64,000 bases of DNA from Lutibacter maritimus (GTDB lineage: Bacteria; Bacteroidota; Bacteroidia; Flavobacteriales; Flavobacteriaceae): assembly GCF_900116115.1 (NCBI RefSeq), contig NZ_FOZP01000002.1:1-64000 (forward strand), given 5' to 3'. The notes under the pieces are model-generated. The model had not been told where the DNA came from and ran no database searches. It saw only the letters and a program-made list of their open reading frames with translations. This document shows, piece by piece, positions 45,119 through 55,691 of the stretch (the first letter of the stretch is position 1; the number at the start of each line of letters is the position of its first letter). Made by a program: the position numbers and the translations under genes.

Positions 45119-46213
45119 ATGTCATTACTAATATTTTACGCTGCTATTTCAATATTTTTTTCGTTTTTATGTTCCATTTTAGAGGCTGTTTTGTTAAGTA
45201 TAACACCCACTTTTGTAAATATAAAAAAACAAGAAGGTAAAAGTTATGCTTTAAAACTTGAAGAATTAAAAAAAGATGTTGATAAACCTTTAATTGCAAT
45301 TCTAACAATAAATACCATTGCTCATACTGTTGGCGCAATATTAGTTGGTGTTCAGGCCGAAACTTTAGAATATAAAATAAATATTTTTGGCATTAACACT
45401 GTTGGAATTATTTCAGCATTAATGACCCTATTAATACTTGTAGTTTCTGAAATTATTCCAAAAACCATTGGAGCCAAATACTGGAAAAAATTAGCTGGTT
45501 TTACTGCAAATGCTTTATTACCGTTAATTTTAATTTTAAAATATACTGGAATTTTGTGGTTGTTACAATTAACTACAAAACTAATTGGAGGAAGCGGTGG
45601 ACATGGATCAATTTTAAGTAGAGAAGACTTTCATGCTATGACAGACATTGCCCACGAAGAAGGTGTTTTTGAAAAAAATGAAAGCGCCATTATAAAAAAC
45701 CTATTAACATTTAAACAGGTACAAGTTAAAGATGTTATGACTCCAAGAACTGTAATGATAAGAGCTTCTGAAAACACTACTGTTCAAGAATTTTTTGAAG
45801 AACACCCAAAATTGCGTTTTTCTAGAATTCCTATTTATAAAAAAAATTCTGATAATATTACCGGCTTCATTTTAAAAGATGAAGTTATGGAAGAAATTAT
45901 TAATGGAAACAGACAAAAAAAATTATCAGAAATAAAAAGGGAATTATTAATTACCAATAGAACCATTCCAATACCAAGCCTCTTTGAAAAATTTATTTCG
46001 CAAAAAGAACATATAGCATTAGTAGTTGATGAATACGGAACTACTAGTGGAATTGTAACTATGGAAGATGTTATTGAAACCTTACTTGGTTTAGAAATTA
46101 TGGATGAAAGCGATAATGTTGAAGACTTACAACTACTCGCCAGAAAAAGTTGGGAAACAAGAGCTAAAAAAATTGGACTTATTGATGATCGACATAAAAA
46201 AGATAATCTATAA
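45119..46213 (+). CDS. CNNM/CorC-type membrane protein with CBS pair
   Basis: The 364-residue protein has a DUF21/CNNM membrane domain (about residues 1-165, four hydrophobic stretches, VSEIIPKTIGAKYW). A CBS pair follows (about 185-330; VMTPRTVMIRA, VVDEYGTTSGIVTMEDVIETLLG). It lacks the C-terminal CorC/HlyC domain of longer hemolysin-C-like proteins. A role in Mg2+ or other divalent cation efflux is the best inference. The ATG at 45119 was preferred over an upstream TTG. A strong terminator follows. Confidence 0.9.
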   Translation: MSLLIFYAAISIFFSFLCSILEAVLLSITPTFVNIKKQEGKSYALKLEELKKDVDKPLIAILTINTIAHTVGAILVGVQAETLEYKINIFGINTVGIISALMTLLILVVSEIIPKTIGAKYWKKLAGFTANALLPLILILKYTGILWLLQLTTKLIGGSGGHGSILSREDFHAMTDIAHEEGVFEKNESAIIKNLLTFKQVQVKDVMTPRTVMIRASENTTVQEFFEEHPKLRFSRIPIYKKNSDNITGFILKDEVMEEIINGNRQKKLSEIKRELLITNRTIPIPSLFEKFISQKEHIALVVDEYGTTSGIVTMEDVIETLLGLEIMDESDNVEDLQLLARKSWETRAKKIGLIDDRHKKDNL

Positions 46214-46278
46214 AATGAATTTTATTTCATTATAATACCTTAAAATTTATCACTTTGTAATAATTGTTGGTAATTAAT

Positions 46279-46326
46279 ATTCAACAAACTATTGAGAAAT
46301 ATCACTAGTTTGTTGAATCTTTTTTA
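46279..46326 (+). terminator. Rho-independent terminator after the CNNM/CBS gene
   Basis: A perfect 12-bp stem ATTCAACAAACT/AGTTTGTTGAAT with a 16-base loop is followed by CTTTTTTA. It isolates the ferredoxin operon from the gene upstream. Confidence 0.8.
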
Positions 46327-46345
46327 TTTACACAAAACTGTAGTG

Positions 46346-46386
46346 TTACTTTGATTCAAAATAGAAAATAAACTTTGAAATCAAAG
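46346..46386 (+). promoter_or_regulatory. Leader of the ferredoxin-flavoprotein operon with two short palindromes
   Basis: A -7-like TTACTTTG (46346-46353, one mismatch) overlaps the palindrome TTTGATTCAAA. A second one, CTTTGAAATCAAAG (46373-46386), ends four bases before the ferredoxin ATG. The pair could be an operator; this is inference. Confidence 0.35.
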
Positions 46387-46390
46387 AATT

Positions 46391-46606
46391 ATGTCCATAG
46401 AAAGTATTAACGGTTGCATAGGATGTGAGGAGTGTATAAAAAGCTGCCCTACAGATGTAATTAGGTTAAATCCTACCACTAAAAAAGCAGAAATAGTTTA
46501 CCAAGAAGACTGTCAAATATGTCATTTATGCCGTATGTATTGCCCGGTAGACGCTATTACAATTTCTCCTGAAAAAAGTATTCCAGTAATTGTATCATGG
46601 GGTTAA
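46391..46606 (+). CDS. 2[4Fe-4S] ferredoxin
   Basis: The 71-residue protein has two full cluster motifs: C9-x2-C12-x2-C15-x3-C19-Pro and C41-x2-C44-x2-C47-x3-C51-Pro. It lacks a signal peptide and is therefore cytoplasmic or attached to the inner face of the membrane. It is the first gene of a tight three-gene unit with a two-heme membrane protein and a Tat-exported flavoprotein. It is the likely electron donor from the cytoplasmic side. It resembles small electron-transfer subunits of reductases such as the adenylylsulfate reductase beta chain only in its cluster pattern. Confidence 0.93.
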   Translation: MSIESINGCIGCEECIKSCPTDVIRLNPTTKKAEIVYQEDCQICHLCRMYCPVDAITISPEKSIPVIVSWG

Positions 46607-46608
46607 TT

Positions 46609-47238
46609 ATGAAAAAACAACGCAATATATTTAGGCTATTAATACTTGCATTATTTTTTATTATTGTGCCAATAGTATTATACAACTTAGGAGATTTTCC
46701 AAAAAGAAGTTTTTTAATGGATGTTTTATCAATCATCACAATTTTAGGATTTTCTTTATTCCTTTCTCAATTTTTTTCAACCAGAATAAATCAAAAATTG
46801 GTAAAAGATATAAGAATGGTTAATGTGCTAAAAATTCATAAGTTTATTGGATATTTATTTATTTCAATACTACTTTTGCATCCATTTTTTATTGTGGTTC
46901 CAAAATTTTTTGACAATGGAGTTTCACCTACAGATGCGTTTTTAACTTTAATAACTAGCTTCAACAGTTTAGGAGTAATTTTAGGAATCATTGCTTATAC
47001 CAGCATGCTTATTTTGTTAATTACTGCGTTTTTCAGATTTAAAATTTATTTAAAATATAAAACATGGAGATATTTGCATGGTTATTTAACAACTCTTTTT
47101 ATTATTACTGCAACTTGGCATGTAATTAATTTAGGCAGACACGGTACCAACCCTTTTTCAATATATTATATACTTGCTGTTGTTAGTGTTATCTATTTTT
47201 TATTGAAAACATACCTTTTTAAAACTTCAAAAAAATGA
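46609..47238 (+). CDS. Ferric-reductase-like two-heme membrane protein
   Basis: The 209-residue membrane protein has about six helices and matches the ferric-reductase-like transmembrane domain. Two motifs of the form H-x13-H are visible, one in IHKFIGYLFISILLLH and one in LHGYLTTLFIITATWH. This is the pattern that ligates two stacked b hemes across the membrane in FRE/NOX/MsrQ proteins. There is no attached FAD/NAD domain. The ATG at 46609 follows the ferredoxin stop by two bases; an overlapping ATG at 46597 is possible. It ends in a four-base ATGA overlap with the flavoprotein gene. Confidence 0.88.
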   Translation: MKKQRNIFRLLILALFFIIVPIVLYNLGDFPKRSFLMDVLSIITILGFSLFLSQFFSTRINQKLVKDIRMVNVLKIHKFIGYLFISILLLHPFFIVVPKFFDNGVSPTDAFLTLITSFNSLGVILGIIAYTSMLILLITAFFRFKIYLKYKTWRYLHGYLTTLFIITATWHVINLGRHGTNPFSIYYILAVVSVIYFLLKTYLFKTSKK

Positions 47239-48974
47239 AAGAATCAACTAATAATTTATCTAGAAGAAAATTTATAGCCTTAGCAGGTGGCGCAGCTAGT
47301 TTTGCAGCAATTGCAGCAATGGGATTACCAACAGATTGGGCTTTAAACACTACTAAAGTTGATGTTGATTCATTAAGTTTTGATAAAATTAAAACCGATG
47401 TATTGGTTATTGGTGGCGGTATGGCAGGTTTATTTGCCGCAGTTAAAGCGCATGATGCTGGTGCAAAAGTTTTAATGGTTTCAAAAGGAAGATTAGGAGC
47501 ATCTGGGCAAACCCCTTTTGCGAAAGGAATATTTACCTATGATCCTAAAAAAGAAAAATTAAGCATTGATGAATTTGCACAAGCCGTATCAAGATCAGCT
47601 TTAGGAACCAACAATCCTGCCTACACAAAACAATTAGCAGAACATTCGCTAGATAGAGTAAATGAATTAAAACAATGGGGCTTTTTTGATTCTTCATTGT
47701 ATAATAAAAGTTTTAGCAAACCCATAAACGACCGAAATATTCCTTTACAAGAACGTGTAGTAATAACACATTTAATAAAAGAAAATAATAAAATTGTGGG
47801 CGCCGCAGGATTTAGTTTAGATTCTGAAAAAATTATTTTTTATGAAGCAAAGAGCGTGATACTTTGCACAGGAGCTGGAGGTTTTAAACCAAATGGTTTT
47901 CCTATTTGCGATTTAACACATGATGGCACCATAATGGCCTATAATATTGGCGCAAAAGTAACAGGTAAAGAATGGAATGATGGACATCCTGCAAAATCTG
48001 AAAATGCAGCAGCCTGTTATGATGGTTGGGGAGATATGTTTGAGAAAAAGCCTGAAACCACAAGTGTTGAAATTCGTCACGATTTAGGTGTAGATATGAA
48101 TTATACTGCTTATATAAATGGTGGCGCTGCACAAATGGGACCTCCAGGAATGGGAAAACAGGAAAATATAGTAGTAGGTGGCCCATATAGACCTGAAGAA
48201 TTTAACAATGCAGGCGGTCATCAGGGGGGAAAAAAAGAAGGTGAAAAAAGACCTCCAAGAAAAGAAGGTAAAGGAGGTCCTCCAGGAATGGGAGGTAGTG
48301 TAGTTGGGGGTTCTTCTGCCGGAATGTCTATTCACAAAGCTGAGGGAATAGTTCCCATAAATGATCAATGTGAGTCTAACATTTCAGGTTTATTTGCCGC
48401 AGGTGATGCTTTAGGATCTTATATGGCTGGCGCAATTTACACGCAAATTGGTTCTTCATTAGCTGGTTCTGCCGTTCAAGGAGCTGTTGCAGGTGAGGCC
48501 GCTGCTAAGTATAGTAAAACTGTAAAAACAGCAAGTATTTCATCAAGCAAAATAAAAGAAATTAAAGAAGAAATTTTAGCACCATTAAAACGTGACGCTG
48601 GTTACAGCGCTGCTTGGGTTACACAAACATTACAAGGAATTATGATTCCTAACTTTATAATTTATATAAAAAAGGAAAACTTATTAAAAGGCGCTTTGGC
48701 TTATGTTGAAGAATTAAGAGATCATCATTTACCAACGTTAAGAGCAAAGAATTTTCATGAATTGCGTTTGGTACACGAAACAGCAAATATGATTGTTACT
48801 GCTGAAATGAAATTGAAAGCATCTATTATGAGAACTGAAAGTAGATGTAGCCATTACCGTATAGATTACCCTGAAGTAGATTATGAAAATTGGAATGTTT
48901 GGATAAATATTTTTAAAGGTGAAGATGGAACAATGCAGTTTGAAAAACAACCTTTTAATACTTGGCCCATATAA
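47235..48974 (+). CDS. Tat-exported FAD-dependent oxidoreductase (fumarate-reductase-like)
   Basis: The 579-residue flavoprotein has a twin-arginine signal (LSRRKFIALAGGAA) and so should fold with FAD in the cytoplasm and act outside the inner membrane. The FAD domain begins near residue 54 with DVLVIGGGMAGLFAA and closes with GLFAAGDALGSYMAGA. The family's HxTxGG segment is replaced by SIHKAEGI, and the late Arg region reads RTESRCSHYRIDYPE. The electron acceptor is therefore probably not fumarate. Residues about 302-361 are a Gly/Pro/Lys-rich insertion with GPPGMG twice. It is co-translated with the two-heme membrane protein, its likely electron donor. Confidence 0.88.
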   Translation: MKESTNNLSRRKFIALAGGAASFAAIAAMGLPTDWALNTTKVDVDSLSFDKIKTDVLVIGGGMAGLFAAVKAHDAGAKVLMVSKGRLGASGQTPFAKGIFTYDPKKEKLSIDEFAQAVSRSALGTNNPAYTKQLAEHSLDRVNELKQWGFFDSSLYNKSFSKPINDRNIPLQERVVITHLIKENNKIVGAAGFSLDSEKIIFYEAKSVILCTGAGGFKPNGFPICDLTHDGTIMAYNIGAKVTGKEWNDGHPAKSENAAACYDGWGDMFEKKPETTSVEIRHDLGVDMNYTAYINGGAAQMGPPGMGKQENIVVGGPYRPEEFNNAGGHQGGKKEGEKRPPRKEGKGGPPGMGGSVVGGSSAGMSIHKAEGIVPINDQCESNISGLFAAGDALGSYMAGAIYTQIGSSLAGSAVQGAVAGEAAAKYSKTVKTASISSSKIKEIKEEILAPLKRDAGYSAAWVTQTLQGIMIPNFIIYIKKENLLKGALAYVEELRDHHLPTLRAKNFHELRLVHETANMIVTAEMKLKASIMRTESRCSHYRIDYPEVDYENWNVWINIFKGEDGTMQFEKQPFNTWPI

Positions 48975-49018
48975 TAGTAGTATTTAAATAATTAATATTT
49001 TTGGTTTGAATTAAGTTG

Positions 49019-49052
49019 AAAAAATCGGTCAGTCATAGGCCGGTTTTTTTTG
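49019..49052 (+). terminator. Rho-independent terminator of the flavoprotein operon
   Basis: Hairpin TCGGTC/GGCCGG (with G-U wobbles), flanked by A6 and T8, 45 bases past the flavoprotein stop. Confidence 0.75.
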
Positions 49053-49135
49053 TCCGTTTTGTAAAACCATTTTCATCAATAAAAAGTATAAGTTTTTTAA
49101 AGTTTATAAAGTTGTTAGTGCTAAAGTATCCGAAT

Positions 49136-49201
49136 TTGGTTGATAAAATACCTGAGTACATTGATTTTAGTTTCTAAAAATACACTCATTTCATTTCTTT
49201 G
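49136..49201 (+). promoter_or_regulatory. Promoter with candidate LytTR operator, site A
   Basis: TTGGTTGAT (49136-49144), a 12-base spacer, then TACATTGAT (49157-49165) is the 9-12-9 direct-repeat geometry of LytTR-domain regulators. A -7-like TTTCTTTG (49194-49201) follows 28 bases after the second repeat. No -33 TTG is present, which suits an activator-dependent promoter. The whole block aligns without gaps to site B (49718-49783). It precedes the Spy-like lipoprotein gene. Confidence 0.6.
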
Positions 49202-49243
49202 TTTCAGCAAATGATTAAATAACAACCTTTTAAAAATAAAATA

Positions 49244-49621
49244 ATGAAACTAAAAATGAACAAAATTTGGAAAATGTTAGTTGTAGTATTAGTAATTACA
49301 ACAACAGCTTGTGGACAACAAAGAGGTGGACAAGAAGGACCTCCTGCGTTACCAACAGCTAAAGAAATTAAAACTATGGTTAGTGATTTATCAAAAGAGA
49401 TTCTTTTAAGTGATGAACAAGAAGCTAAAGTTTTAAAATTATATACTGCACACTTTGAAGAAATAAAAGAAAAAACAAGTGCTGGAAGACCTGATAGAAA
49501 TGAAATGGAAGCTTTAAAAACTTCACTTGAAAAGGAAATTACATCTATTTTATCAAAAGACCAGCAAACAAAATACGCTTCTTTTTTAAAGAAAAAACCA
49601 TTGAGAAAAAATAAAATGTGA
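49244..49621 (+). CDS. Small Spy/LTXXQ-like lipoprotein
   Basis: The 125-residue protein has a lipoprotein signal peptide (lipobox TTAC, Cys about residue 23), followed by a Gly/Gln/Pro-rich linker (QQRGGQEGPPALP). A helical domain follows with a pattern like Spy/CpxP chaperones: ILLSDEQEAKVLKLY, then ILSKDQQTKYASFL, each resembling the LTxxQ motif. It is probably periplasmic-facing. It is transcribed alone from a promoter with the same operator-like repeats as the next operon, suggesting co-regulation. It may protect envelope proteins under the stress sensed by the LytS/LytTR pair downstream. Confidence 0.75.
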   Translation: MKLKMNKIWKMLVVVLVITTTACGQQRGGQEGPPALPTAKEIKTMVSDLSKEILLSDEQEAKVLKLYTAHFEEIKEKTSAGRPDRNEMEALKTSLEKEITSILSKDQQTKYASFLKKKPLRKNKM

Positions 49622-49676
49622 TTTAAATAAGCATTAAAATATAAGTTTTGAGTTTATAATTAAGTTTGGTTAAATT

Positions 49677-49713
49677 TTCCTCACATGTTAAAGAAAATTA
49701 AATATGTGGGGAA
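49677..49713 (+). other. Inverted repeat between the Spy-like gene and operator site B
   Basis: TTCCTCACAT and ATGTGGGGAA can pair over ten positions with one wobble and a 17-base loop. There is no proper T run, only TTATTT after it. It could be a weak terminator for the lipoprotein gene or an RNA structure. Confidence 0.35.
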
Positions 49714-49717
49714 TTAT

Positions 49718-49783
49718 TTGGTTGATAAAACAAGCCAGTTCATTGATTTCTTTTCTTAAAATTTAGCACATCATTTTTCTTTG
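49718..49783 (+). promoter_or_regulatory. Promoter with candidate LytTR operator, site B
   Basis: TTGGTTGAT (49718-49726), a 12-base spacer, then TTCATTGAT (49739-49747), and a -7-like TTTCTTTG (49776-49783) 28 bases further. The spacings are identical to site A. It drives the DUF4956-DUF2490-CotH operon, whose ATG is at 49808. Confidence 0.6.
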
Positions 49784-49807
49784 TAGTTAAATAAAACAAA
49801 CAATTTT

Positions 49808-50413
49808 ATGGAATTTTTAGACATCCCAATTTTTGATGATGATTTTTACAAAATGCTTTTTAGATTTTGTTTAAACCTATTTTTTCTAACAATAATTATC
49901 AAGTTTTTATACTATAAAAATTCTAAACGAAAAGATTATTTATTTACCTACTATATGATTAGTATAATTGTATTTTTCTTATGCTTTACCCTAAAAAAAT
50001 ACAATTTAGATATTGGTATGGCACTTGGGCTTTTTGCAATTTTTGGAATTATTAGATACAGAACTGATGCTATTGCTATAAAGGAAATGACGTATTTATT
50101 TATAGTAATTGGTGTTTCAGTAATTAATTCATTAGCGAACAAAAAAATGAGCTATTCAGAAATTTTAATCGCCAATACACTTATAATTTTTGTACTAACT
50201 ATTCTAGAAAAATTCTGGCATTTAAAACATGAAATCTCTAAAAAAATTACCTACGAAAATATTGAAAATGTAAAACCGGAAAATTATAGTTTGTTAAAAC
50301 TAGATTTAGAGAAAAAAACTGGGTTAACTATTAATAGAGTTACAATTGGTGATTTAGATTTATTAAAAAATACTTCAAAGGTTACAATTTACTATTACAA
50401 CGGAAAATTATAA
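49808..50413 (+). CDS. DUF4956 family membrane protein
   Basis: The 201-residue inner-membrane protein has three to four helices in the first 135 residues, including the family's AMGLGLFAIFGIIRYRT-like stretch (here IGMALGLFAIFGIIRYRTD). A soluble C-terminal part follows. DUF4956 genes commonly neighbour CotH-like kinase and VTC polyphosphate-polymerase genes. Here CotH is present two genes downstream, but no VTC-domain gene is in the window. It is the first gene of an operon behind operator site B; DUF2490 follows after three bases. Confidence 0.9.
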   Translation: MEFLDIPIFDDDFYKMLFRFCLNLFFLTIIIKFLYYKNSKRKDYLFTYYMISIIVFFLCFTLKKYNLDIGMALGLFAIFGIIRYRTDAIAIKEMTYLFIVIGVSVINSLANKKMSYSEILIANTLIIFVLTILEKFWHLKHEISKKITYENIENVKPENYSLLKLDLEKKTGLTINRVTIGDLDLLKNTSKVTIYYYNGKL

Positions 50414-50416
50414 AAA

Positions 50417-51118
50417 ATGAAATTCAACAAAACCATATCAAACACTATCCTGTTTTTCTTTTTAGTTGCGTCTGGAATTACATATTCTCAAAACAGCGAC
50501 TTAGGAAATTGGACGGCCATTGAATTGGAATATAAATTCAATAAAAAATTAAGTTTCGGATTAGAAGAACAACTTAGATTAAAAGAAAATATATCGCAAA
50601 TAGATGAATATTTTACAGAAATAAGCACTGAATATGATTTAACAAAAAACTTCTCAATTGGCGCTGGTGCACGATTCATTAAAGAAAATGATAATGAAGG
50701 AAAAATTCAAGGAAATGAAAATCATTTCAGATTTCAATTAGATGCAGCTTATAAACATAAAATTGATCAGTTTTCACTTAAATACAGATTTCGTTATCAA
50801 AATAAAAATGAATTAGGAATTAGTGCATCTGAAGGCGATTATGCTAACCAACATATTCGATTAAAAACTTCAATAGGCTACAATATTAAAAAATGGAAAT
50901 TAGATCCTGAATTTTCTGCAGAACTATTTAATCACTTCAAAAAAAATGAAGAAAATGGGTTTGATAAATTCAGATTATCTATAGGAACTGACTACGATTT
51001 GAAAAAATATGGAAAAATAAATTTATACTATCAATTTGAAAAAGAATTAAACACTAGCAATCCATCAATACTAAATGTAATTGGATTAAAATATAAATAC
51101 ACTTTTAAAAACAAATAA
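50417..51118 (+). CDS. DUF2490 outer-membrane beta-barrel protein
   Basis: The 233-residue protein has a signal peptide ending TYSQ, then alternating amphipathic strands. It matches DUF2490: LGNWTAIELEYKFNKKLSFGLEEQLR at the start, FSIGAGARFI, YRFRYQNKNE, and a final strand of IGLKYKYTFKNK. It is predicted to be a small outer-membrane barrel. Function unknown. It lies between DUF4956 and CotH genes with gaps of two to three bases, so all three are co-transcribed. Confidence 0.88.
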   Translation: MKFNKTISNTILFFFLVASGITYSQNSDLGNWTAIELEYKFNKKLSFGLEEQLRLKENISQIDEYFTEISTEYDLTKNFSIGAGARFIKENDNEGKIQGNENHFRFQLDAAYKHKIDQFSLKYRFRYQNKNELGISASEGDYANQHIRLKTSIGYNIKKWKLDPEFSAELFNHFKKNEENGFDKFRLSIGTDYDLKKYGKINLYYQFEKELNTSNPSILNVIGLKYKYTFKNK

Positions 51119-51120
51119 AC

Positions 51121-52560
51121 ATGAAAAATTCAACTATTAAAATTGCATTACTTTTTATTACAATTTCTATCGCATCTTATGTGCATATTAGCTGTTCTGA
51201 TGATGAAATAATTTCTGATGCCGATACAACTGAGACAACTAACGTAGTTGTAGACGATTTAGACTTTACACCAACAGATTGGACAACCGAAACGCACAGC
51301 AAAGATGCAGACCCAAATTACACAGAAGTATTTGATAATACTGTTGTAAAACGATTAGATTTTGTGGTATCTAATACAAACTGGAAAGCTATGTTAGCGG
51401 ATATGACAAGTCTTTACGGAACTTTTGGGTCATCAAATTCTGGTCCTGGTGGTGGCGGAGGTGGTGGCACATCTTTTTCTGATGAAGACCCAATTTTTGT
51501 TCCAGCTTCTGTATTTTATAACGGAAAAGAATGGTATAAAGTAGGTATTCGTTTTAAAGGAAACTCTAGCTTGCAAAGTGCTTGGCAAGCAGGAATTTTA
51601 AAACTTTCATTCAAATTAGATTTTGATGAATATGAAGATGATTATCCACAAATTAAAAACCAACGCTTTTACGGTTTCAAAAAATTTAGTTTAAAAAATA
51701 ATTATGATGACGATGCTTTATTAAGAGAAAAAGTTGCAGCAGAAATTTTTAAAAATGCTGGTTTAGCTGTTTCAAACACTGGTTTTTACACGTTATATGT
51801 TGATTACGGAAGCGGACCACAATATTTTGGACTTTACACATTGGTTGAAGAAATTGATGATACAGTTATTGACACTCAATTTTCAAGCGGTGATGGAAAT
51901 TTATACAAACCTGAAGATGATGGTGCAAATTTTGCAAATGGAACTTTTAATGAAGATGGATTTGAAAAGAAAACAAACGAAGATGAAGCTGATTGGAGCG
52001 ATGTTAAAGCAGTATTTAGTGCCTTACACGCTAGCACCAGAACAACAGATCCTGCAGCTTGGAGAGCAGGTTTAGATGCTGTTTTTGACACAGATGTATT
52101 TCTTAATTATTTAGCTGTAAATACAGTAATTCAAAATTGGGATACTTATGGTAGAATGGAACACAACTATTATTTATATAATAATCCTTCTACTAATAAA
52201 CTAACTTGGATTCCTTGGGATAATAATGAAGCATTACAAACAGGGAAACAAGGTGGCTCTTTAAATTTAAATTTCTCAAATCTTTCTGGTGATTGGCCAT
52301 TAATATCATATTTATATGCAGACAGCGTTTACAAAGCAAAATATGACGCCTATGTAAAAGCAACTATAGATGGGCCTTTTGAAACAACACACATTCAAGC
52401 TGTTTATGATACCTATGCAGAATTAATAGCACCATACGCAACAACAGAAGTAAAAGGCTATTCCTTTTTAAATAGCAGTAGTTCATTTTATTCTGGTATT
52501 AGTGCCATAAAATCTCATGCAAGCAGCAGAGCAAGTGCGGTAACAACTTATTTAAAGTAA
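51121..52560 (+). CDS. CotH-family kinase-like lipoprotein
   Basis: The 479-residue protein has a signal peptide with an ISC lipobox (about residue 25) and an acidic linker. A Gly-rich run (seven glycines, near residue 113) precedes the CotH domain. Conserved CotH features are VKRLDFVVSNTNWK, the VGIRFKGNSSL segment, LREKVAAEIFKNAGL, YFGLYTLVEEID and the metal-binding IPWDNNEAL. The spore-coat protein CotH is an atypical protein kinase; in Bacteroidota these are secreted and their targets unknown. It is third in the operon and is followed by a strong terminator. The substrate could be a co-operonic envelope protein, but this is speculation. Confidence 0.9.
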   Translation: MKNSTIKIALLFITISIASYVHISCSDDEIISDADTTETTNVVVDDLDFTPTDWTTETHSKDADPNYTEVFDNTVVKRLDFVVSNTNWKAMLADMTSLYGTFGSSNSGPGGGGGGGTSFSDEDPIFVPASVFYNGKEWYKVGIRFKGNSSLQSAWQAGILKLSFKLDFDEYEDDYPQIKNQRFYGFKKFSLKNNYDDDALLREKVAAEIFKNAGLAVSNTGFYTLYVDYGSGPQYFGLYTLVEEIDDTVIDTQFSSGDGNLYKPEDDGANFANGTFNEDGFEKKTNEDEADWSDVKAVFSALHASTRTTDPAAWRAGLDAVFDTDVFLNYLAVNTVIQNWDTYGRMEHNYYLYNNPSTNKLTWIPWDNNEALQTGKQGGSLNLNFSNLSGDWPLISYLYADSVYKAKYDAYVKATIDGPFETTHIQAVYDTYAELIAPYATTEVKGYSFLNSSSSFYSGISAIKSHASSRASAVTTYLK

Positions 52561-52572
52561 ATTGATTTTAAT

Positions 52573-52621
52573 ACCTTTGTTTATACACTAAATCATAAAT
52601 TGTATAAACAAAGGTGTTTTT
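52573..52621 (+). terminator. Rho-independent terminator of the DUF4956-CotH operon
   Basis: A perfect 14-bp stem ACCTTTGTTTATAC/GTATAAACAAAGGT with a 15-base loop is followed by GTTTTTA. It is 12 bases past the CotH stop and 32 bases before the kinase gene. Confidence 0.85.
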
Positions 52622-52652
52622 AAAATAGAATAAAGATAGTAACCTTTAAACG

Positions 52653-53765
52653 ATGAGCTTAATTAAAAAAAATTACAAATTCAATTATTTTGAGCCTTTA
52701 ATAATTATTGCCTTTTGGGCATTATTATTTGCGTCTCCTCTTTTATTTGGACGATTTGAAGACCAAATTGAGTGGCAAAAAGTACAAACTGTTTGGTTAA
52801 ACTTTTTACCTTTATTAGTGTTGTTTTTTATCAATCGTTTTGCTTTATTACCTAGGCTTTTTTTTAAAGGAAAAAGAGTTGGTTATTTTTTGAGTACCAT
52901 TTCAATAATAGTCCTTTTTGCTGTTAATATTCATTTTTTTAATGATATTCCTATACAAAAAAGACCAAGACCAGAAGGTATTGAAAATTCAGGATTTTTA
53001 AACCCAACTCCTGAAAATGCTGATAGAATACCACCGCCGCCCATGAGACGTTCAGAATCTGCTCCTCAACCAATTCCACCATCAATAAACTTTTTAATTT
53101 TAGCTGTTTTATTAGTTGGTTTTGATACTGGTTTGCAAATTTCAATGCGTTGGTCTAGTTTAGAAAAAGAAAAGTTTAAACTTGAAAAAGAAAGTGTAGA
53201 AAACCAATTGGCCATTTTAAAAAACCAAGTAAGTCCGCACTTTTTTATGAATACTTTAAACAATATTCACGCATTAGTAGATATTGATTCTGAACAAGCA
53301 AAAACCTCTATTATTAAACTCTCTAACCTAATGCGTCATTTATTATATGATTCTGAAGGGAGCAAAACACCCATAAAAAAAGAAATATCCTTTATTGAAA
53401 GTTATATTGAATTAATGAAGCTACGCTTTTCTGAAAAAGTAAAAATAACAGTAGATATTCCTACCGTAATTCCAGAAAAATTAATCCCTCCGCTACTTTT
53501 TACATCACTATTAGAAAATGCTTTTAAACACGGAATTAGCTATAATTCAGTTTCTTTTATTGATGTCAAAATGAGTTTTTCAGAAGAACAATTAACTTTC
53601 ATTATTAAAAATAGCAATCCTAATTTTAATAAAACAAGCACAACTAAAGGTATTGGAATTGAAAACACTAAAAAGAGATTGGACCTTATTTACGGCGAAA
53701 ATTACACTTTAAAAGTTGATCACAACAAGGAGTTTTATCTAATAAATTTAAATGTTCCATTATGA
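52653..53765 (+). CDS. LytS-family sensor histidine kinase
   Basis: The 370-residue kinase has four predicted membrane helices (three within about residues 15-110 and one near 145-160), joined by a Pro-rich external loop with PPPPMRR and APQPIPPS. A coiled coil leads to the His_kinase domain with the phospho-acceptor in NQVSPHFFMNTLNNIHAL. The ATPase portion has LLENAFKHG and GIGIENTKKRLDL. There is no extracellular sensor domain beyond the loop. It overlaps the LytTR regulator gene by four bases, forming a dedicated pair. The ligand is unknown. Confidence 0.93.
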   Translation: MSLIKKNYKFNYFEPLIIIAFWALLFASPLLFGRFEDQIEWQKVQTVWLNFLPLLVLFFINRFALLPRLFFKGKRVGYFLSTISIIVLFAVNIHFFNDIPIQKRPRPEGIENSGFLNPTPENADRIPPPPMRRSESAPQPIPPSINFLILAVLLVGFDTGLQISMRWSSLEKEKFKLEKESVENQLAILKNQVSPHFFMNTLNNIHALVDIDSEQAKTSIIKLSNLMRHLLYDSEGSKTPIKKEISFIESYIELMKLRFSEKVKITVDIPTVIPEKLIPPLLFTSLLENAFKHGISYNSVSFIDVKMSFSEEQLTFIIKNSNPNFNKTSTTKGIGIENTKKRLDLIYGENYTLKVDHNKEFYLINLNVPL

Positions 53766-54475
53766 TTACATGTATAACAATAGATGATGAGCCCTTAGCT
53801 TTAAAACAAGTGGTTAGTTATATAAATAAAACACCCTTTTTAGAATTAAAAGGCAATTTTGAAAGTCCAATTGAAGCATTTTCTTTTATTCAGGAAAATA
53901 CTATTGATTTGATTTTTATTGATATTAACATGCCTGATTTAAACGGATTAGATTTTGTAAAATCATTAAAAAATCCGCCAAAAGTAATTTTCACAACTGC
54001 TTATAGTGAATATGCTTTAGAAGGTTTTAAGGTTGATGCTATAGATTATTTATTAAAACCAATTGATTATGCTTCCTTTTTAAAAGCCGCCAACAAAGCC
54101 AAAGAATGGTTCAATTTAAAACAAAATGCTGCTGAAGAAATAAAAAGTAATGACGATTATTTATTCATAAAGTCTGAATATAAAATTGTACGTGTAAAAT
54201 TAGATGACATTACGTACATTGAAGGCATGCGAGAATATGTTAGAATTCATTTAACTGTTGAAAAACCAATAATGACATTGCTAAGCATGAAACTTTTAGA
54301 GCAACAATTACCTTCAAATAATTTTATGCGTGTTCACAGATCTTACATAGTAAATTTATCAAAAATCTCAACAATTGAAAGAAATAGAATTGTATTTGAC
54401 AAAACGTATATTCCTATAAGTGAGCAATATAAAGACGTTTTTCACCAATTTATTGAAAAGAATTTTTTACAGTAA
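53762..54475 (+). CDS. LytTR-family response regulator
   Basis: The 237-residue regulator has a receiver domain (about 1-118; acidic pocket D8-D9, phospho-acceptor Asp54 in FIDINMPDLNG, conserved Lys in YLLKPID). A LytTR DNA-binding domain follows (about 135-235; ITYIEGMREYVRIHL, MRVHRSYIVNLSKI). LytTR proteins bind pairs of 9-bp direct repeats with about 12-bp spacing. Exactly such pairs occur at 49136-49165 and 49718-49747, so these are the best target candidates. It overlaps the kinase gene by four bases and converges with hflX. Confidence 0.94.
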   Translation: MITCITIDDEPLALKQVVSYINKTPFLELKGNFESPIEAFSFIQENTIDLIFIDINMPDLNGLDFVKSLKNPPKVIFTTAYSEYALEGFKVDAIDYLLKPIDYASFLKAANKAKEWFNLKQNAAEEIKSNDDYLFIKSEYKIVRVKLDDITYIEGMREYVRIHLTVEKPIMTLLSMKLLEQQLPSNNFMRVHRSYIVNLSKISTIERNRIVFDKTYIPISEQYKDVFHQFIEKNFLQ

Positions 54476-54479
54476 ATTT

Positions 54480-55691
54480 TTAATCCTCCTCATTATATTC
54501 ATCATATAAAAAGTCGTTATACGGAAAACGTGTAATGTGAATTTTCTTTATTTCTTCAAAAACTTTCTCTTTAAATTCATCCAAATTTTCCTTATTTAAT
54601 GCAGAAATAAATAGACAATTATCCCCCGATTTACTCATCCAAGTTTTGCGCCATTCATCTAAAGTATAATGAATTTCAGTTTTCTCAGTCACTAAATCAT
54701 CGGCTTCAATAACTTCTGGTTCGTACGCATCAATTTTATTAAAAACCATTATTACAGGTTTATCTGAAGATTTAATTTCATCTAAAATTTTATTTACCGA
54801 TGCAATATGATCTTCAAAACTAGGGTGCGAAATATCTACAACGTGTAATAATAAATCTGCCTCACGAACCTCATCTAATGTAGATTTGAAAGATTCTACC
54901 AATTGCGTAGGTAATTTTCTAATAAACCCAACTGTATCGGTTAATAAAAATGGAATATTTTTAATCACAACTTTTCGAACAGTTGTATCAAGCGTAGCGA
55001 ATAATTTGTTTTCAGCAAAAACATCACTTTTGCTTATCACATTCATTAAAGTAGATTTACCAACGTTTGTATAACCAACCAAAGCAACACGCACTAATTT
55101 TCCGCGATTTTTACGTTGAACCGCCATTTGCTTGTCAATAACCTTCAGTTTTTCCTTTAGTAACACAATTTTTTCACGAATAATACGTCTATCTGTTTCA
55201 ATTTCAGTTTCACCAGGACCACGTAAACCAATCCCACCTTTTTGTCTTTCAAGGTGAGTCCACAAACGTGTTAAACGTGGTAATAAATATTGACATTGTG
55301 CCAATTCAACTTGTGTGCGTGCGTAACTTGTTTGCGCTCGAGATGCAAAAATATCTAAAATTAAATTGGTCCTGTCTAATATTTTACAGTTTAAAACCTT
55401 TTCAATATTACGTAACTGTCCAGAAGAAAGTTCATCATCAAAAATGGCAGTTTCAATATTATGTGTATCAATATACGCTTTAACTTCATCTAATTTTCCT
55501 GTGCCAATAAAGGTTTTTGGGTTAGGACTATCTAACCGTTGAATAAATCTTTTTACCGCAACTCCACCAGCAGTTACTGTTAAAAATTCCAACTCATCTA
55601 AATATTCATTGGTTTTTTCTTCAGTTTGATGTTGTGTTATAATCCCAATTAAAACAGCTTCCTCAGATGTTACTTTTCTTTCTTCAATCAT
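54480..55691 (-). CDS. hflX: GTPase HflX
   Basis: HflX is a ribosome-associated GTPase that splits stalled or hibernating ribosomes after stress. The 403-residue protein has the HflX N-terminal domain (AVLIGIITQ, FIGTGKLDEVKAYI, FDDELSSGQLRNIE). A coiled coil follows, including LWTHLERQKGGIGLRGPGETEIE. The G domain has G1 GYTNVGKSTL, G3 DTVGFIRKLP and G4 FNKIDAYE. The ATG at 55691 was preferred over an upstream TTG. It is divergent from an EEP-family gene. Confidence 0.96.
   Translation of the reverse strand: MIEERKVTSEEAVLIGIITQHQTEEKTNEYLDELEFLTVTAGGVAVKRFIQRLDSPNPKTFIGTGKLDEVKAYIDTHNIETAIFDDELSSGQLRNIEKVLNCKILDRTNLILDIFASRAQTSYARTQVELAQCQYLLPRLTRLWTHLERQKGGIGLRGPGETEIETDRRIIREKIVLLKEKLKVIDKQMAVQRKNRGKLVRVALVGYTNVGKSTLMNVISKSDVFAENKLFATLDTTVRKVVIKNIPFLLTDTVGFIRKLPTQLVESFKSTLDEVREADLLLHVVDISHPSFEDHIASVNKILDEIKSSDKPVIMVFNKIDAYEPEVIEADDLVTEKTEIHYTLDEWRKTWMSKSGDNCLFISALNKENLDEFKEKVFEEIKKIHITRFPYNDFLYDEYNEED

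Follow-up and report, generated by a model that had tools for sequence, protein, structure and literature searches.

Two matched repeat blocks lie upstream of the small-protein gene and of the DUF4956-DUF2490-CotH operon of Lutibacter maritimus, and it is highly likely that they are the operator-promoters of one local LytTR regulon, activated by a phosphorylated response regulator encoded in the same cluster. The matching sites of these two promoters, together with a weaker third, very probably belong to this neighbouring LytTR protein. The sites keep their spacing, co-occur with this regulator across the genus, and are conserved in relatives. The features of the cluster, which lies within a 64,000-nucleotide stretch of contig NZ_FOZP01000002.1 (the window, meaning the whole stretch analysed), are collected in Table 1.

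Table 1. Operators, promoter boxes, and genes of the LytTR cluster in the window; R1 is the operator-promoter model described in the text
Feature	Position	Strand	Basis or remark
Third, weaker operator ACTATTGAG-N12-TTTGTTGAA	46288..46317	+	R1 match 46291-46362, 25.4 bits, E 3.7e-5, genome rank 3
-7-type box TTACTTTG	46346..46353	+	Sequence; 28 bases after third operator; offset kept elsewhere
71-aa ferredoxin, 4Fe-4S motifs; first of upstream set	46391..46606	+	Pfam Fer4, two stretches
Ferric-reductase-like membrane protein	46597-47238	+	Pfam Ferric_reduct
FAD_binding_2 flavoprotein	47235-48974	+	Pfam
Terminator-like hairpin, flavoprotein gene to small-protein promoter	49018..49050	+	Weak: 1 found in region, 1.2 expected in shuffles
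Operator 1 TTGGTTGAT-N12-TACATTGAT	49136..49165	+	Sequence; R1 match 49133-49209, 44.3 bits, E 4.7e-11
-7-type box TTTCTTTG, small-protein promoter	49194..49201	+	Sequence; 28 bases after operator 1
Small Gly/Gln/Pro-rich protein	49244..49621	+	No Pfam family
Operator 2 TTGGTTGAT-N12-TTCATTGAT	49718..49747	+	R1 match 49714-49792, 47.1 bits, E 6.3e-12, genome's best
-7-type box TTTCTTTG, DUF4956 operon promoter	49776..49783	+	Sequence; 28 bases after operator 2
DUF4956	49808-50413	+	Pfam; first gene of operon 49808..52560
DUF2490	50417-51118	+	Pfam; 3-base gap after DUF4956
CotH kinase-like protein	51121-52560	+	Pfam; 2-base gap after DUF2490
14-bp perfect inverted repeat then GTTTTT, between CotH and lytS; possible terminator	52573..52615	+	Sequence
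LytS-type histidine kinase	52653..53765	+	Pfam His_kinase E 2.1e-23; aligned with 10 relatives
Response regulator with LytTR DNA-binding domain, proposed operator ligand	53762..54475	+	Pfam

The regulator has the composition of a LytTR two-component protein, with a receiver domain (Response_reg, E 2.7e-19) and a C-terminal LytTR domain (E 1e-21; both Pfam), and its gene overlaps by 4 bases that of its LytS-type kinase partner; the match to the LytTR structures of AgrA is weak (E 0.015). A Pro-rich loop precedes the last hydrophobic segment of LytS (topology assigned by eye) and is seen, also by eye, in most of the 11 aligned sequences. Pfam bore out the DUF4956, DUF2490, and CotH labels of the original prediction and its LytS/LytTR pair, the latter as His_kinase and Response_reg with LytTR. 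The small protein had been called Spy-like, a label for which we found no support: neither a Spy/LTXXQ-type profile nor any other Pfam family matched it at E 0.001, NCBIfam returned spore_GerD alone (E 0.0069, with 15.9 bits where the cut-off is 100), and a congener copy gave a sub-threshold DUF4890 match and nothing more. When the 55 window ORFs were ranked by Gly+Pro richness in a 20-residue stretch, the flavoprotein, CotH, LytS, and the small protein all fell within the top seven. The flavoprotein contains GGPPGMGG, and three congener loci appear similar in their Gly/Pro-rich stretches. The inverted repeat between CotH and lytS lay outside the terminator scan, its loop being too long.

Operators 1 and 2 share the form TTGGTTGAT-N12-T[A/T]CATTGAT, and the box starts exactly 28 bases on in both, so the identical repeat period and promoter distance claimed for the two blocks were recovered. 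Both blocks are present where they had been placed, and their best ungapped 67-base alignment again gave 47 identities; when the two upstream regions were shuffled 2000 times under a first-order Markov model, the mean was 36.4 and the maximum 44, with 0/2000 reaching 47. The spacer is 12 in the third operator as well, and the window sites have the features of direct-repeat operators, namely repeats of about 9 bp, a spacer within 11-13 bp, and a position upstream of the promoter core. The LytTR half-site consensus is [TA][AC][CA]GTTN[AG][TG], with which, compared by eye, TTGGTTGAT agrees at 7/9 positions, TACATTGAT at 8/9, and TTCATTGAT at 7/9. PMC9723704 describes the sigma-A -7 box of a flavobacterium as having the consensus TAnnTTTG at -12 to -5; each window box (TTTCTTTG, TTTCTTTG, and TTACTTTG) misses one of its six fixed letters. 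In many relatives TACCTTTG or TATCTTTG stands at this offset. The third operator has a poor first half-site, and its equivalent in the sister genome reaches only 15.4 bits with R1. No operator was found in the window before lytS, nor one belonging to CotH alone.

A whole-genome motif search had been proposed as a check. In the source genome (3,484,703 bases, 20 contigs) the exact two-half-site pattern occurs at the two window sites only, but with three mismatches there were 43 matches genome-wide against 43 for a reversed-pattern control, so the loose motif stands at chance level and is uninformative by itself. A degenerate half-site search with two mismatches was near noise (125 matches against 102 in the control). 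We replaced the loose search with R1, a sequence-only model that takes in the -7 box and was built from 18 aligned operator-promoters of six congeners. Neither the window species nor its sister was used in training, and the CotH-promoter sites, mostly without a clear -7 box in the congeners, were left out too; the E-values of R1 are only approximate, as the tool itself states. In the source genome, R1 placed the two reported blocks at ranks 1 (47.1 bits) and 2 (44.3 bits) and the third operator at rank 3, while rank 4 already had E 0.003. Just three matches lay below E 1e-4, on which count an origin in a mobile repeat or duplicated promoter was rejected. An RNA element was rejected on the grounds that no Rfam match was found in 46000-55000 and that the -7 box comes only after the repeats.

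Outside the window, at C8:327782-327832 (L150:5783-5833), two perfect overlapping pair matches from the degenerate half-site search make up three tandem half-sites of period 21 that precede a 919-aa ORF. Counting from the last repeat, the nearest T[A/T]nnTTTG-type box comes after 38 bases instead of 28, R1 gives 15.9 bits, and the sister genome retains the first repeat alone in register; this place was not counted among the operators. At L150:5666-5723 there is a dispersed element of about 57 bases, resembling an intergenic inverted-repeat family, that is found in several places and on both strands in the sister genome (G319) and in G233, and is weak in G300.

Within Lutibacter, LytTR orthologues of 73-100% identity were found in 11 of 38 genomes, and R1 gave 40 matches at E<1e-4 in the genus, all of them within those 11; none of the 27 genomes without an orthologue had a match at this threshold (best E 0.00124). 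Fisher's test for 11/11 against 0/27 gives 8e-10, a value to be read with the kinship of the genomes in mind and with the fact that training sites came from six of the 11; in the genomes unused in training, sites were present in 5/5 (15 of the 40 matches), against the same 0/27. The DUF4956 protein has a match in nine of the 38 genomes, the source genome included, with lytS and lytTR at the locus in all nine. By inspection, a window-type site precedes the small-protein gene in all 11 orthologue-bearing genomes and precedes VTC or DUF4956 in 9/9 genomes with that operon, the site in G332 being presumptive, as it lies at one contig end and a cut VTC gene lies at the end of another. Such a site also precedes CotH in 9/11; only the window and its sister lack one, and in both CotH begins within 2 bases of DUF2490. 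The VTC gene, a family assignment checked on one copy, precedes DUF4956 in seven of the nine genus loci and is missing there from the window and its sister; comparison of 49622-49807 with L080-L086 places the operator of these two species, without VTC, directly before DUF4956. Some congeners have sites before Cthe_2159 and Lcl_C lipoprotein genes too, and in some the orthologous ferredoxin is preceded by stronger sites than the window's third operator. Two genomes (G322 and G323) keep the regulator and the sites, with no DUF4956 match and no VTC-DUF4956-DUF2490 genes at the locus, and in G300 about 54 kb separate lytTR from the site that precedes the small-protein gene. Across the genus the half-site is about TT[C/G][A/G]T[T/A]GAT.

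The orthologous congener promoters keep the repeats and the box while much of the remainder differs. This conservation bears on the proposal that, in a genome so rich in AT, the blocks are alike by chance or through recent duplication of a promoter, for which the window GC of 29% and the chance-level number of loose matches might speak. We attach practically no probability to it, given also the outcome of the 2000 shuffles and the first two ranks awarded by a model built from other species; the comparison across species and the co-occurrence with the regulator both weigh heavily against it.

At the family level, 35 of 299 genomes had a match to the DUF4956 protein; out of 37 places matched, 20 (from 19 genomes) were retrieved as control loci. 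None of the 20 carries an orthologous LytS/LytTR pair; L057 and L059 have a pair at 31-33% and 45-47% identity, and L053 has a 27% LytTR match. On these DUF4956-operon loci and four loci of a LytTR paralogue (53-55% identical to the window regulator), the best R1 match had E 0.0049, and within those four none was better than E 0.038. The repeats might serve another regulator, either a different LytTR protein or an unrelated factor, and merely lie near this pair, as LytTR sites resemble one another and several congeners encode LytTR relatives of 46-55% identity. This is very unlikely: sites at E<1e-4 track the 73-100% orthologue exactly, 11 of the 27 site-less genomes do carry a 46-55% relative, the four loci of the 53-55% relative are without good matches, and an equal site type adjoins related LytS-LytTR pairs outside the genus. 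We retain the neighbouring LytTR protein as the proposed regulator. The core of the original prediction, a local LytTR regulon, is supported by the R1 ranking, the genus-wide co-occurrence, and the clear control loci; it was incomplete in that it missed the third operator and the reach across Bacteroidota.

For the comparison beyond the genus, we took the best 80 of 587 places in a LytS scan of named genomes, 79 of which lie outside Lutibacter (Ulvibacterium, Draconibacterium, Prevotella, Bacteroides, and many MAGs). Of the 79, 59 carry one or more genes of the set VTC, DUF4956, DUF2490, CotH, Cthe_2159, Lcl_C, and small protein, and 53 have one on the lytS strand within 4 kb. These counts, like those for the genus, are not independent events, since the genomes share ancestry and the distant loci come mostly from Bacteroidales. 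The set was found in 0/4 paralogue loci and 0/3 other loci, which are small controls and the sole ones for this proportion. A half-site matrix built from 50 Lutibacter half-sites only gave, at threshold 16 and spacer 12, 40 plus-strand pairs (in 39/79 loci) and six minus-strand pairs, while the 20 remaining spacers from 4 to 24 gave 0-7 plus-strand pairs apiece; the other 40 loci had no plus-strand spacer-12 pair at this threshold. The preference held at threshold 14 (46 pairs at spacer 12 against 1-11 at others) and at threshold 18 (20 against 0-5). Among the 40 pairs, 33 are followed by a T[A/T]nnTTTG box, 29 of them after 28 bases and four after 29 bases, and only four such boxes occur at other offsets within reach. 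The first gene 3' of the pair is Cthe_2159 in 14 cases, lytS in 11, Lcl_C in two, VTC in two, and another gene in eight, with none found in three. R1 gave 35 matches at E<=1 on the 79 loci, 31 of them on the lytS strand. With the pattern TTSRYTGAW, 51 pairs had spacer 12, of which 48 lay on the strand of lytS, against 0-6 at spacers 6-11 and 13-19, although these counts are not independent because the pattern was written after viewing the same loci; the Lutibacter-only matrix and the later-fetched loci are the fairer tests.

Those later loci, five in number, represent the 5/394 phylum genomes (besides the source genome) with a LytS match at E<=1e-60, and the evidence from them is mixed. R1 found five matches at E<=1.1e-4, each of them on the strand of lytS, in three of the five loci; three are good (in G103) and two partial (in G664 and G557). 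Two of these five, in L244 and L246, start at model position 14-15, i.e. without a good first half-site, and L245 and L247 had no R1 match. The TTSRYTGAW search with two mismatches found no intergenic pair in the five loci, and the Lutibacter matrix (threshold 16, plus strand) found one pair each at spacers 12, 13, and 15. A search of the family of G562 for more held-out genomes yielded only 2/20. In the Prevotella-type loci L175, L176, L181, L186, L187, L191, L195, L196, L205, L219, and L220, the operator precedes the gene of a 124-146-aa protein that, by eye, has a leader and, at its C-terminus, a stretch resembling a sorting domain, and in most of these loci this gene lies shortly before that of Cthe_2159.

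We infer LytTR binding, activation over repression, and the signal in the following scheme. The LytS kinase would sense an envelope signal and phosphorylate the LytTR regulator, two LytTR domains of which would occupy the two 9-bp half-sites; their distance of 21 bp would therefore place them on one face of the helix. The second half-site ends 28 bp before the TAnnTTTG-type -7 box, where the regulator is predicted to assist RNA polymerase. With the box numbered -12 to -5, the first half-site covers about -70 to -62 and the second reaches to about -41, two helical turns apart. TTG, the -33 element, is absent from all three window 28-base stretches between repeats and box, which suits dependence on an activator. 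LytTR bound to the same pair might instead repress, or both activate and repress, and this we regard as unlikely, with the repeats upstream of the -7 box by a fixed 28-29 bases without overlap and in a layout that matches activating LytTR sites described in PMC6193735. As an activator, the regulator would have as its window targets the small-protein gene and the DUF4956-DUF2490-CotH operon, and the ferredoxin, ferric-reductase, and flavoprotein genes would be a target through the weaker site. In relatives the predicted targets include VTC, Cthe_2159, Lcl_C lipoproteins, and a CotH gene that has a site to itself. In several other Bacteroidota lytS may also be a target; 11 distant loci have a site ahead of it, which suggests that it is autoregulated in them.

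Regulons under LytTR two-component control are an established kind, and AgrA, YpdB, and BtsR are LytTR direct-repeat systems. The LytTR sites described in PMC6193735 are direct repeats with spacers mostly of 12 bp, just upstream of the promoter, and in S. mutans (HdrR/BrsR) the repeats lie 4-11 bp before the -35 element. The window operators resemble these sites in having two 9-bp direct repeats with a 12-bp spacer just upstream of the promoter core, and differ from them in half-site sequence and in the Bacteroidota TAnnTTTG type of promoter; several separate operons would be targets here, rather than chiefly the regulator operon or bacteriocin genes. With the 'LRS-like' operons of Bacteroides, in the description of PMC6193735, they share the phylum, a LytTR regulator, and direct repeats before a TATCTTTG box, but those operons have a membrane-bound LytTR protein with an NfeD/DUF2154 partner, 11-bp repeats, and an 11-bp spacer, in contrast to the LytS kinase and response regulator, 9-bp repeats, and 12-bp spacer of the window. 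CotH, poly-phosphate polymerase, and DUF4956 are described as accessory genes beside Gram-positive pel clusters (PMC7112168), and CotH, a VTC-type polymerase, and DUF4956 are likewise encoded together here; that account, in its passages on these genes, does not mention a LytTR regulator. The Bacteroidota sets add DUF2490, Cthe_2159, Lcl_C, and the LytS-LytTR pair, and unlike the pel clusters the window and its sister are without VTC at this place. PMC10434189 gives the DUF4956-DUF2490 genes of B. thetaiotaomicron a change of -7.6-fold under low iron (P 0.175); a link to iron was considered from this and is not relied on. In the open-licence literature searched we found no description of deep Bacteroidota conservation of the operator arrangement, of which a published account may exist, none of a regulator of CotH/VTC/DUF4956/DUF2490/Cthe_2159 genes in Bacteroidota, and nothing on CotH with LytTR in Bacteroidetes or on CotH kinase in flavobacteria.

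CotH, VTC, DUF4956, DUF2490, and Cthe_2159 genes occur together in many of the examined loci, and these families and Lcl_C point, by name alone, to the envelope or surface. The Gly/Pro-rich segments and the Pro-rich LytS loop hint that the kinase may respond to some feature of this surface layer. A wider reading, which we offer tentatively as possible rather than probable, is that of a phylum-wide Bacteroidota envelope-response system with its operator kept from Lutibacter to Prevotella, a regulon built around CotH, VTC, DUF4956, and Cthe_2159, and a LytS whose Pro-rich loop resembles the Gly/Pro-rich segments of the controlled proteins and which may monitor surface-layer assembly. If the regulon is as predicted, a two-component system with a readable operator would provide a switch for turning the gene set on, and the operator motif would name further members, including ferredoxin/flavoprotein genes, Lcl_C lipoproteins, and small Gly-rich proteins. 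It would also give a way to seek the inducing signal in Prevotella- and Bacteroides-type organisms and in flavobacteria.
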